A stretch of DNA of 64,000 nucleotides from Pseudomonadota bacterium (GTDB lineage: Bacteria; Pseudomonadota; Alphaproteobacteria; Micropepsales; Micropepsaceae). Positions 40,459-44,504 of the stretch are shown one piece after another. Under the pieces are notes generated by a model. The model was not told the origin of the DNA and did no database searches. It saw only the letters and a program-made list of their open reading frames with translations. Each line of letters begins with the position of its first letter. Position 1 is the stretch's first letter. A program made the translations under genes and the position numbers. Location: contig JAJZDZ010000003.1 in NCBI GenBank assembly GCA_021851325.1, positions 124,001 to 188,000 of the forward strand, given 5' to 3'.

Positions 40459-40950
40459 ATGGCATTCTATCTCGACGCGGAATTCTGGGTAGCCGTTGGC
40501 TTTGTGACGGTCGTCGGTATCTTCATCTACCGTCGCCTTCCGGCCTTTGCTGGTCGCATGCTCGATGAGCGCGCAGCCAAGATCGATCATGAGCTAAATG
40601 AGGCCCGGCGGTTGCGCGATGAAGCCGAGGCGCTCCTGGGCGAATACAAGAAAAAGGCTGCCCAGGCGGAGAAGGAAGCCGAAAATATACTCGTCGAAGC
40701 TCGAGCCGAGGCAGCACGGTTTGCCACCGAGGCTCGCGAACAGCTCAAGGCCCAGATCGAGCGCCGTACGCAGCAGGCTCAGGAGAAAATTGCCCAGGCC
40801 GAAGCGACCGCTATGGCGGAAATACGAGGTCTCGCAGCAGACGTTGCGACCGCAGCCGCCGAGAAGCTGATCGCCGCACGGATCGACGAAGCCCGCGCCC
40901 GCGACCTGATCGCAGGAAGCCTCTCGGAGCTGGCGGACAAGCTGAATTAA
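40459..40950 (+). CDS. atpF: ATP synthase F0 subunit b
   Basis: A 163-residue b subunit. The membrane helix starts almost at once (F-W-V-A-V-G-F-V-T-V-V-G-I-F-I), and a coiled-coil stalk R-R-L-R-D-E-A-E-A-L-L continues to the C-terminus. Together with b' it forms the heterodimeric stator. It is the last gene of the operon; the F1 genes are elsewhere, as usual in alphaproteobacteria. Confidence 0.95.
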   Translation: MAFYLDAEFWVAVGFVTVVGIFIYRRLPAFAGRMLDERAAKIDHELNEARRLRDEAEALLGEYKKKAAQAEKEAENILVEARAEAARFATEAREQLKAQIERRTQQAQEKIAQAEATAMAEIRGLAADVATAAAEKLIAARIDEARARDLIAGSLSELADKLN

Positions 40951-41205: not shown

Positions 41206-42018
41206 CTAGGCTGCCTGCGCCAAGCGCATCCCACGTTCTTCAAGGTCATCACGTATGACATCGAGTGGCTGACGCCGATCGATGAGAGCGGACGCAGCAC
41301 TGCGCAACCGCGACCTGATCTCACTCCGGGCCCCGTTGAAGGTAAGTATGGGCGCACAGGGCTGGACCTCTGCTGCGCGCAGGGTTTCGCAGGGCGCACC
41401 ATTGGCGTCGAGTAAGTCGTGATGGTCGAGTTCGATGTGGTAGAAGGTGAGAGGTTCAGCGTGCTCGCACTGGTCGAACACAATGGTTGTGCCGTTTACC
41501 AGCTGTCCGGCCGGAATGAGATATCCGTTAACGTACAGCGCATGCGCTGCGGTCAGACAAAGATCGCGGCTTGGAACATTGTCAGCTAAAGCTCCACGCC
41601 TCACCCAGACAGGCCGCAAATGACCCAGCCATTCGTGGTGCAGGCCATGGGTCGTGACGAAGAAACTCTCTACTGCTTTGATCGCAGCAAGGCCTCCAAA
41701 CTGCGTCACAACCTTCTCACCCACTGATAGCATCTCGATTGGGCGATCGCCTTCAGCGGTTCGGATACGCGTACCCTTGAGGAAGCATCCTCCAGGGCCT
41801 CCAGGGCCTCCAGGGCCTCCAGGGCCTCCAGGGCCTCCAGGGCCACCCGGACCACCAGGGCCACCCGGACCACCAGGACCACCCGGACCACCCGGACCAC
41901 CCGGACCGGCCGACACGGGCTTAGCCGCAAGGCCCATCGTCAATGCTGCAGCTCCGGCAATGCCCGTAGCCTTGATCAGGTTGCGACGGAAGCGATCGAC
42001 CCGTACTTCATCCTTCAT
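41206..42018 (-). CDS. Tat-signal, Gly-Pro-Gly-repeat, Hint-domain protein
   Basis: A 270-residue protein of unknown role with three parts. Residues 1-37 are a twin-arginine-like signal (F-R-R-N-L-I-K, then a hydrophobic run ending P-V-S-A). Residues 38-77 are 13 tandem Gly-Pro-Gly triplets plus one Gly. Residue 78 is the first cysteine of a Hedgehog/intein (Hint_2-type) domain: C-F-L-K-G-T-R-I-R-T, D-R-P-I-E-M-L-S-V-G, then L-T-A-A-H-A-L-Y-V-N-G and Y-H-I-E-L-D-H-H-D-L-L. Hint domains can rearrange the peptide bond before their first cysteine into a thioester. A C-terminal charged tail of about 50 residues follows. The ATG at 42018 has TGGAG 7 nt upstream. It stands alone between atpF and aspS. 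Confidence 0.8.
   Translation of the reverse strand: MKDEVRVDRFRRNLIKATGIAGAAALTMGLAAKPVSAGPGGPGGPGGPGGPGGPGGPGGPGGPGGPGGPGGPGGPGGCFLKGTRIRTAEGDRPIEMLSVGEKVVTQFGGLAAIKAVESFFVTTHGLHHEWLGHLRPVWVRRGALADNVPSRDLCLTAAHALYVNGYLIPAGQLVNGTTIVFDQCEHAEPLTFYHIELDHHDLLDANGAPCETLRAAEVQPCAPILTFNGARSEIRSRLRSAASALIDRRQPLDVIRDDLEERGMRLAQAA
41788..41907 (-). repeat. 9-bp tandem repeat encoding Gly-Pro-Gly
   Basis: 120 nt coding for 13 Gly-Pro-Gly units. Six consecutive units nearest the Hint cysteine are identical at the DNA level (TCCAGGGCC on the plus strand). The units nearer the signal peptide vary by synonymous ACC/CGG changes. Loss or gain of a unit keeps the reading frame, so length variation is tolerated. 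Confidence 0.9.
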
Positions 42019-42076
42019 GCTGATCTCCAATGAACACCAGTCATTGTTCTCCTCTAGCAGTAACAGCTCAACGCTA

Positions 42077-42103
42077 ACATTTTAAAAAAATGTAAAAAAA
42101 TGT
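42077..42103. repeat. AT-rich inverted and direct repeats upstream of the Hint gene
   Basis: ACATTTT (42077-42083) is inverted as AAAATGT (42087-42093) with a 3-nt gap. The 10-mer AAAAAAATGT occurs twice head to tail (42084-42093, 42094-42103). The block lies about 60 nt upstream of the Hint gene ATG and could be an operator or a promoter UP element. Confidence 0.45.
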
Positions 42104-42359
42104 CGCGGCCGTCATACTCAGTGGCACTGTTTTTGTTCTTACTTCGTCCGTTGCATCAAATCCGGGCCAAATACTGAAATGACGGCATCCATAGACTGCA
42201 ATACCGGACAATAATGTTACATATATTCACGATAGCCGAACATATCGTTCTATGAAACTTGATGCTGCGAGGAATCTGTAGTTTTGCCGCTCACAATGGG
42301 CGCGCGCAGCACGGATGTGGCCGCTGCCCACGTGGTACCGGGACGAGCGGCCTGGGCAT

Positions 42360-42369
42360 GGGGGGGGGG
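42360..42369. repeat. homopolymer run of ten G
   Basis: Ten consecutive G bases in noncoding DNA between aspS and the Hint gene. Such runs are prone to slippage; here it is in neither coding sequence. Confidence 0.8.
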
Positions 42370-42470: not shown

Positions 42471-44273
42471 TCAGGCCTCAGGCTTTACGACTCGGATGTG
42501 CAGCTCCTTCAGCTGACGGGCAGATACGGGTCCAGGGGCCCCCATCATGAGGTCTTGCGCCTGCTGGTTCATCGGGAACATGGTGACCTCACGCAGATTA
42601 TCCTCACCAGCCAGCAGCATGACGATGCGATCGATCCCTGGTGCGGTACCACCATGGGGCGGCGCGCCGTAGCGGAACGCATTTAGCATTCCAGAAAAGC
42701 GTGCTTCCGTTTCCTCACGTGGGTATCCCGCGATTTCAAAGGCCTTGAGCATTACCTCTGGATCGTGATTTCGGATGGCCCCTGAACTGAGTTCGATTCC
42801 ATTGCAGACGATGTCGTATTGATATGCCTTAAGACCAAGAATGGTCTGCTTGTCTGCCGGATCGAGCGAGAGAAACGCGTCGCGCCCATATTGCGGCATC
42901 GAAAATGGATTATGTGAAAAATCGATGCGCTTCTCATCCTCATTCCACTCATACATTGGAAAATCGACGATCCAGCAGAACTTGAATTCACCACTAGCGA
43001 CGAGATCCAGCTCCTTGCCAAGCCGTATACGCGCCGCACCGGCGAGAGCTGCCGCCTTATCTGCCTTGGCATCAGCAGAGAAAAACACTGCATCACCGCG
43101 TTTCAGGGCGCAGCGCTGCAACAATTGCCCCATGATGGGATCCGGTATGAACTTGGCGATTGGTCCCTTGCCCACCAGCTTACCGTCTTCCTCCTCGAAG
43201 ACGATATACCCCAGCCCAGGAGCCTTCATCTCACTGCGTGCCCAGTCATTGAGGCGATCAAAAAAGCTGCGCGGCTGCTGCCCCGCTCCAGGAGCCGGAA
43301 TCGCCCGTACGATCTTGTCCTTGAAGGCCTTGAACGCAACACTGGTGTCAGCAAAGAGGTCTGAGACGTCGCTGATGACTATGGGGTTGCGTAGGTCAGG
43401 CTTGTCGACCCCATATTTTAACATGGCCTCGTCGAACGCAATTCGTGGAAATGGGGGCGCGGACACGCTTCGACCACGTGCAAACTCTTCGAATACGCCA
43501 TGCAATACCGGCTCGACTGCCGCAAAGACGTCGTCTTGGGTAACAAAACTCATCTCAAGATCAAGCTGGTAGAACTCACCTGGAGAACGATCAGCGCGCG
43601 CGTCCTCGTCGCGAAAACATGGCGCGATCTGAAAGTAGCGATCGAAGCCGGCGACCATGATCAGCTGCTTGAACTGCTGCGGCGCCTGGGGCAAGGCATA
43701 GAACTGGCCCGGATGCAGTCGGCTTGGAACCAGAAAGTCACGCGCACCCTCAGGCGAGGAGGCCGTCAGTATCGGTGTCTGGAATTCCGTGAACCCCTGC
43801 CCGATCATGCGTCGACGGATAGAGGAAATCACCTCGCTGCGCAGGGTGATATTATTGTGCAGCCGTTCGCGGCGCAGGTCGAGGAAGCGATATCTGAGCC
43901 GCGTGTCCTCCGGATAATCCAGATCACCAAAAACCGGCAGGGGCAATTCCTGAGCCACCGACTGAACAGTGATCTCTTCGATCCGTATCTCAATTTCTCC
44001 CGTCGGAAGATCGCGATTTACGGTTTCAGCCGATCGGGCCACCACAGGTCCGCTGACCGTTACCACCCACTCGGAGCGGCAGCGATCCGCCTCGGCAAAG
44101 GCCGGGCTGTCCGGCTCGATGACACATTGGGTAATGCCATAGTGGTCGCGCAGGTCAAGAAAGACCAAGCCACCATGATCGCGCCTGCGGTGCACCCAGC
44201 CGCTCAACCGTACCTTCTGGCCCACCGCGTCACTGCGTAATTGTCCACAGGTATGAGTTCGATAGGCGTGCAT
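42471..44273 (-). CDS. aspS: aspartyl-tRNA synthetase, probably non-discriminating (Asp/Asn)
   Basis: A 600-residue bacterial-type class II synthetase. The N-terminal anticodon-binding OB domain has [11 protein letters not shown]. It is followed by the F-x-x-I-x-T-P-x-L type motif 2 region ([10 protein letters not shown]), a bacterial insertion domain, and motif 3 ([10 protein letters not shown]) near residue 540. The histidines in R-R-R-D-H-G-G follow the pattern of the characterised non-discriminating enzyme of Pseudomonas aeruginosa, against R-R-R-D-L-G-S in E. coli. It may thus also charge tRNA-Asn for GatCAB. The ATG at 44273 is preferred to a TTG at 44279. Confidence 0.96.
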
Positions 44274-44504
44274 GGGCAAGAATCCTAGGCTTGAAAGCGC
44301 CGCTTGTGGCGTTTCTGCCCCGCCTGGTCAAGTCCAAGCCCTTCCCCTTCGGGCCGGTAACAGACACCCGAGCGGCCGGCTGGATGAGCAACGACTCCCC
44401 AGCCGGTGCTGGCCCATGTGCCAGGCGGCAAAAAGGCTCGCTCCCACGCCCATGACAGAGGTTACGGGGGGACGGGGTGCCGCGAATCCGCTATATCGGA
44501 GGAC

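Follow-up and report, generated by a model that had tools for sequence, protein, structure and literature searches.

A gene at 41206–42018 on the minus strand of the window, by which we mean the whole 64,000-nucleotide stretch of DNA analysed here, encodes a protein of 270 amino acids in which a twin-arginine-like signal, 13 pure Gly-Pro-Gly units, and one further Gly lead directly to the first Cys of a Hint_2 domain. The arrangement raises the question of what such a protein is for: is the Gly-Pro polymer a product that the Hint domain releases or hands on, as an earlier note on this DNA had proposed, or is it a connection between signal and domain whose sequence is of little consequence?

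The Gene and Its Surroundings

The gene runs from an ATG at 42018 to a stop codon at 41208–41206, as read from the open frames, so the coordinates given in the earlier note are correct; the strand, which that note left unstated, is minus. A Shine-Dalgarno-like GGAG (42025–42028, minus strand) lies 6 nt 5' of the ATG. The placement between atpF and aspS given previously agrees with the open reading frames there: the gene for ATP synthase subunit b occupies 40459–40950 on the plus strand and aspS 42471–44279 on the minus strand, both named from their reading frames and not from a family search.

Upstream of the gene is an AT-rich stretch (42020–42319, 40–46% GC) that is a possible promoter region. 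It holds one weak sigma-70-like match, against a mean of 0.5 in shuffled sequence. GC content elsewhere around the gene is 53–74% in most 120-base segments; a stretch within aspS (42680–42979) is likewise low, at 47–50%, and the upstream region, rightly described as AT-rich, is therefore not unique in this. A run of ten G residues (42360–42369) in the gap between aspS and the Hint gene is a likely assembly or slippage spot. The antisense frame at 41654–42085 (plus strand, 143 amino acids), with a mirrored Pro-Pro-Gly repeat, is a by-product of the tract and was not treated as a gene.

Signal, Hint Domain, and Tail

The translation bears out the order of parts described before: MKDEVRVDRFRRNLIKATGIAGAAALTMGLAAKPVSA, (GPG)x13, G, and then CFLKGTRIRT. 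The twin-arginine-like signal (residues 1–37, RRNLIKATGIAGAA...PVSA; 41908–42018, minus strand) would be cleaved after A37. It falls just below the cut-off of TIGR01409 (16.5 bits versus 16.7) and scores 14.3 bits on Pfam TAT_signal, for which the cut-off is 22.7. None of the seven relatives scanned reaches the Pfam TAT cut-off, and four of them have no TAT match whatever (L138, L168, L110, and L111, the last two slightly trimmed). The RR pair is present in all 36 full-length copies of the family described below, and TatC is encoded in the genome from which the window is taken.

Pfam Hint_2 (PF13403) matches residues 78–214 with 114.1 bits (cut-off 28.4; E 9e-33), and membership in Hint_2 is firm on this profile. 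No Pfam domain besides Hint_2 and the weak TAT match was found in the protein; a ubiquitin-like N-terminal partner is absent. The domain, delimited as Cys78 to Thr212 (41383–41787, minus strand) from Pfam, the AlphaFold block means, and fold matches in the PDB, contains four sites of interest, all on the minus strand: Cys78 (41785–41787), which aligns with residue 1 of inteins and BILs and so stands at the position of the N-S acyl shift nucleophile; the block B motif Thr156-Ala-Ala-His159 (41542–41553); a block-F-like His, His200 (41419–41421); and Glu211-Thr212 (41383–41388), at the place of the intein-terminal His-Asn. The C-terminal tail that follows (residues 213–270, about 57 amino acids; 41209–41382, minus strand) is conserved in the family and predicted to form two helices (231–248 and 251–269).

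Predicted Structure and Known Hint Proteins

The AlphaFold2 model has a mean pLDDT of 76.1 and a pTM of 0.64. Hint block means are 81–98 over residues 81–220; residues 8–46 and 61–73 fall below a pLDDT of 50, and we take the linker to be disordered on the evidence of the model. Comparison with known structures (Foldseek and VIA-align, with Z differences under 1 counted as ties) matched the model to BIL2 (6y75, Z 14.5), a Clostridium thermocellum BIL (2lwy, Z 13.9), inteins, and Hedgehog (1at0, Z 11.9). A Z of at least 8 was reached by 77 of 999 aligned chains, and among the 50 matches listed all are inteins, BILs, Hog, or Vint; as far as a predicted model allows, membership in the Hint fold is firm. 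By sequence alone, a search of the PDB found no Hint chain, and its five matches, all to MelC, were discarded as not meaningful, having come about through the signal and the Gly region.

The alignment of the model with the MchDnaB intein sets Cys78 opposite intein residue 1 and ends with Thr212 opposite residue 145, so the Asn that enables the C-terminal cut of inteins is replaced here by Thr or Ser. Glu211 (41386–41388) stands where inteins have their penultimate His.

Hedgehog, which passes its thioester to cholesterol, has a Gly-Cys-Phe junction and a TAAH motif. The window protein shares both of these and the fold of the Hog domain; unlike Hedgehog, it has no folded N-terminal signalling domain. 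It resembles other Pfam Hint_2 proteins in Cys1, the block-B S/TxxH, the HIELxxHD block, and the E(S/T) end, but in most of the others met here the domain is part of a longer frame, in some cases one with RTX-type repeats (L123–L125), whereas the window protein has no N-terminal domain, only signal and linker.

Type B BILs are without block G and cleave without splicing, according to the available part of one account (PMC4031507). The window protein, with Cys78 at residue 1, Glu211-Thr212 at the place of block G, and no His-Asn, is likened to them by description, and differs from them in that its N-terminal partner is a linker with a Tat-like signal.

The closest fold match, tied within 1 of the next rows, is the BIL2 of BUBL from Tetrahymena, which is activated by zinc and attaches the ubiquitin-like partner at its N terminus to lysines, as described in the portion of the paper at hand (PMC8616854). 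The view that no system of this design had been described was in that light too strong. BIL2 is unlike the window protein in belonging to a eukaryote, in the ubiquitin-like nature of its tag, and in ending with Asn143, where the window protein has Thr212. Buerglin (2008) treats bacterial proteins that carry a Hint-like domain at the C terminus and in some of which a signal peptide is predicted; these proteins, from Myxococcus, Photorhabdus, Serratia, and others, are set apart from ours by the conserved two-cysteine upstream region described in the accessible part of that article (PMC2362128). No description of the signal-linker-Hint architecture was found among the matches listed in the open-licence literature, and the part available of a paper on the Asaia secretome makes no mention of Hint. 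Hint-driven tag transfer is known; the minimal exported form seems to be undescribed.

Distribution of the Family

A second protein of the same kind is encoded on another contig of the same genome (L001), with the linker DNNHHGGGGDGGGGGDGGGGGQWWSGGGGDGGGDGGDGGGDGG, of GGGD type, before the Cys. When this genome and 60 relatives were searched, 8 of the 61 had a match at E 1e-3. The protein itself occurs in three of the 37 genomes of the genus (the window's own, G005, and G023); in G016 the match is to a longer Hint_2 protein, and in G003 there is only a low-complexity match. The copies in two sister MAGs, REEB323 (presumed to be G005) and LL6.bin46 (presumed to be G023), adjoin atpF; that of REEB323 is truncated by a contig end.

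A single-protein search of named genomes gave no match. An alignment-based scan of named genomes returned 47 loci; at most of these, in Acetobacteraceae and other groups, the Hint_2 domain sits within a longer frame. One of the 47 (L032), in an Enhydrobacter MAG, has the signal-linker-Hint-tail order. The family to which this MAG belongs has a match in 11 of 75 genomes at E 1e-10: eight carry a full-length signal-linker-Hint-tail copy, those of G429 and G455 ending a few residues before the query, two (G476 and G495) carry broken copies only, and one (G493) only other Hint_2 proteins. Three larger samples were even draws in which 6 (class), 6 (phylum), and 10 (family) candidates per genome were scored, and their counts are lower bounds: any match in 10 of 385 genomes of the class, with no full-length copy outside the window's own genome; a match at E 1e-20 in 17 of 398 genomes of the phylum, in three of which, apart from the window's own genome, the match starts inside the signal; and a match at E 1e-20 in 28 of 247 genomes of the family of one such phylum-sample genome, 19 of them with the signal-linker form, in 21 copies. 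Judged from these sequences, the signal-linker-Hint form is scattered and not universal. MAG contigs were seen to stop inside or near the Gly-rich linker or the Hint start (L016 end, L005 start, L013 end), and such genes may for that reason be under-counted in draft genomes.

Named plasmid copies occur in Sinorhizobium meliloti (pSymB, L168), Phyllobacterium (L169), and S. medicae (L171). The S. meliloti gene, whose product is annotated as "Hint domain-containing protein," has a match in 30 Sinorhizobium plasmid records; in 26 of these the match spans 80% or more of the gene. Two of these 26 near-full-length copies span 844 and 846 bases rather than 843 (CP130047 and CP130056), which may reflect strain indels or read errors. 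A Rhizobium lusitanum protein (L170) was rejected as a family copy, being a longer Hint_2 protein of 395 amino acids. The f174 group is presumably rhizobial, since its copies share one starred clade of 24 with the named copies from Sinorhizobium and Phyllobacterium. A quick tree placed the Tat-type copies in two separate clades, of 14 rows (99*) and 24 rows (96*). A tree constrained to keep all 38 rows as one group scored better, by 17 log units (p-AU 0.905), and was not rejected; a convergent origin of the two clades was accordingly dropped, and a single origin is possible.

No partner gene is shared across lineages in an all-against-all comparison of the frames at 36 loci, with flanks of mostly 1.5 kb. 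Real shared neighbours occur in at most four loci, all four from one genus (g309), and the members listed of the larger neighbour clusters (34, 16, 9, and 9 loci) overlie the Hint gene in other frames. Membership in a defence system was also discarded, none of the four proteins examined having a PADLOC match.

Conserved Residues and Selection

Sixty frames were aligned, and residues were counted on the 36 full-length signal-linker-Hint-tail copies among them, the window copy included (13 on the window/Enhydrobacter side and 23 rhizobial); the remaining 24 frames were set aside, two being cut by contig ends, eight coming from broken copies, and 14 being other Hint_2 proteins. Cys78, His159, His200, Glu211, and a Ser or Thr at 212 are kept in every one of the 36 copies, and position 156 is Thr in 13 and Ser in 23. 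Positions 194, 196, and 201 are variable in this set. A 45-row alignment, mainly of other Hint_2 proteins, has His159, His194, Glu196, His200, Asp201, and Glu211 invariant and Cys78 in at least 90% of rows. The earlier note had held that common loss of the active-site Cys, or of the His of the TxxH-like motif, among homologues would tell against thioester-type chemistry; with both kept in 36 of 36 copies, such chemistry is plausible as far as sequence can indicate.

Cys210 (41389–41391) and Cys221 (41356–41358) are both present in all 13 copies of the window/Enhydrobacter side, suggesting a disulfide near the active site in that group; among the 23 rhizobial copies Cys210 occurs in none and Cys221 in two.

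For pairs with finite dS, dN/dS was 0.08–0.34 in the Hint domain and 0.08–0.32 in the tail (11 of 12 pairs each); 12 of 14 intended pairs were computed, the S. fredii NGR234 copy (L172) being left out, and of the 12 one had saturated dS in Hint and one in the tail. Within the genus, Hint and tail together gave 0.07–0.13 (10 of 15 pairs, the other five being saturated). Hint and tail are under purifying selection.

Selection of this kind could also act on a Hint fold kept for a structural or binding role in the periplasm, with an unreactive Cys, a reading we think unlikely though far from negligible. It is favoured by the LL6.bin46 copy (L012 1312–2130, the same place as L029), an exception outside the 36: lying between aspS and atpF, this syntenic copy has Tyr for the Cys and Arg for the block-F His, yet over Hint and tail it shares 73% identity with the window copy, and the dN/dS is 0.09. 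By its sequence the copy has probably decayed recently; the dN/dS of 0.09 speaks against decay, long-term selection being not visibly relaxed. The broken copies in the family of the Enhydrobacter MAG indicate that the gene can be lost, and a non-catalytic scaffold would retain the fold too, though Cys and His less easily. Against an unreactive module stands the retention of Cys, Ser/Thr, His, His, Glu, and Ser/Thr in 36 of 36 copies alongside variation at positions 194, 196, and 201, a pattern that fits a working active site; moreover, the Tyr copy is without the block-F His as well and has no signal within its open frame.

The Gly-Pro-Gly Tract and the Linkers of Relatives

The linker, or N-extein (residues 38–77; 41788–41907, minus strand), consists of the 13 Gly-Pro-Gly units and one Gly, and is recognized as a TRF array (41792–41907), from a reading of the repeat, and by low model confidence. 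The tract is not due to chance. It is built on a 9-bp repeat of 13 units in four sequence types, in which three of the nine positions vary, all of them third codon positions and all synonymously; the probability that three variable positions of nine should all be third codon positions is 1 in 84, a figure that treats as independent copies that are not. The tract thus appears to have grown as a repeat while staying Gly-Pro-Gly, and the restriction to synonymous change is a hint that selection has to some degree kept it Gly-Pro. A Thr-rich stretch in one eukaryotic Hog-type protein has been ascribed by its author to slippage (PMC2362128, in the part available).

The linkers of relatives have other sequences at the same place, such as GGGD, GNGN, HHHGGGDD, FFHHGPDHKP, or QGGRVKDPWKDNR. 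In the 33 of 36 copies in which a simple cleavage-site rule allowed an estimate (L107, L139, and L144 were left out), they are 9–137 amino acids long, with a Gly fraction of 0–0.71. The 20 residues before the Cys contain 0 to 15 Gly across the 36 copies, the linker of L152 being without any Gly, and the Enhydrobacter MAG copy (L032) has only 13 ordinary residues between signal and Cys, with the same tail. The residue before the Cys is of 12 types in the 36 copies (N 10, A 5, M 5, R 4, G 3, P 2, Q 2, and V, S, H, K, and L one each). A search for homologues with signal, GPG repeats, and Hint in that order, as had been suggested, yielded the signal-linker-Hint order in the 36 full-length copies and the GPG repeats in none of them but the window copy: the tract was not found in any other copy compared, and the two same-place orthologues are uninformative about it because one is cut off and the other decayed. 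Collagen-like Gly-X-Y proteins resemble the window copy in its 13 perfect triplets, but its relatives follow no triplet rule, and a Gly-X-Y repeat is not shared by the linkers of the 33 measured copies.

The proposal that a 40-residue Gly-Pro polymer is the point of the protein is not supported by linkers that differ so in sequence and in the residue before the Cys. A collagen-like or polyglycine tag was rejected as the purpose of the family because the linker is not conserved, and a specific collagen-like tag is unlikely for this tract as well, which is probably a lineage-specific spacer.

Two readings would nevertheless have the Hint domain transfer what precedes it. A Tat-exported Hint might act as a one-turnover acyl-transferase of the envelope, forming a thioester with any linker it bears and passing this linker, perhaps together with a membrane signal, to an envelope nucleophile; we regard this as distinctly unlikely. 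If true, a flexible peptide or anchor of no set sequence would be installed with neither ATP nor a sortase. Quite improbable, too, is a transfer of the Gly-Pro-Gly peptide as such, in which the Hint thioester would hand it to a surface nucleophile as a collagen- or polyglycine-like modification. The intact chemistry residues in all 36 copies, the conjugation of an N-terminal partner to lysines by BIL2, the closest fold match (PMC8616854, in part), and the persistence of all 13 units as Gly-Pro-Gly through synonymous change only are consistent with such a tag; the freedom of linker sequence, linker length, and –1 residue across the family, the Gly-less linker of L152, the 13 ordinary residues of L032, and the lack of a neighbour common to lineages within flanks of mostly 1.5 kb argue against it.

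There is little to recommend a last reading, in which the Hint domain serves to release or present the C-terminal helical hairpin and the hairpin itself is active, on the pattern of polymorphic toxins with a pretoxin Hint. In its favour are the conservation of the tail, its helical form in the model, and a second half (DRRQPLDVIRD...) specific to the window's clade and kin. Against it, many Hint_2 proteins share the first half (CAPxxxxGxxLxxxRxxL), which so seems to belong to the Hint unit; the tail shows conservation and no polymorphism; there is no intein-type Asn at the Hint end; no immunity-like small gene adjoins; no neighbour is shared within the mostly 1.5-kb flanks; and none of four proteins has a PADLOC match. 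The variable toxic C-terminus and immunity gene of polymorphic toxins are thus not seen in the window protein.

A Probable Stand-Alone Exported Hint Protein

The reading that we prefer, with a probability of roughly 0.55, is that of a stand-alone exported Hint protein, probably reactive, which cleaves at the bond between linker and Cys and in which the Gly-Pro-Gly run is a spacer grown by slippage. It draws on the anatomy of the protein, its family, its conserved residues, its predicted fold, and the selection acting on it. From these we infer the use of the Tat route, the cleavage, the nucleophile, and the role of the spacer, which may be pictured as follows.

The Tat route, which exports folded proteins (PMC3305326, in the part available), would carry the Hint domain already folded. 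With a folded cargo whose reactive Cys is the first residue of the fold, a flexible spacer would be needed between signal and Cys, and the Gly-rich run could be that spacer. After export, the Hint domain (Cys78, Thr156/His159, and His200) would convert the linker-Cys78 bond to a thioester, and water or another nucleophile would resolve it, releasing the Hint-tail module from the linker and from any signal that had not yet been removed. Because the last Asn of inteins is replaced by Thr or Ser, cleavage would be expected on the N-terminal side only, without splicing, as in type B BILs and Hedgehog. Linker sequences would drift by slippage, and the pure Gly-Pro-Gly form would have arisen by expansion of the 9-bp repeat within a linker of indifferent sequence. 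A Hint domain folded in the cytoplasm could cut before export, and the proposal requires some delay; cleavage at that stage would waste the protein, so delay or activation in the periplasm is likely, with control by a metal or a disulfide as candidates.

If this reading is right, the tract offers an example of a striking low-complexity sequence beside an active site that is a spacer and not a product. Several lineages of Alphaproteobacteria, with S. meliloti, a species used in the laboratory, among them, would export a minimal Hint protein whose active site is intact and whose N terminus carries no folded partner. The family would then be a clean natural case of an exported Hint domain with nothing to splice, in which one may ask what such a domain does and whether water or a physiological nucleophile attacks the thioester.
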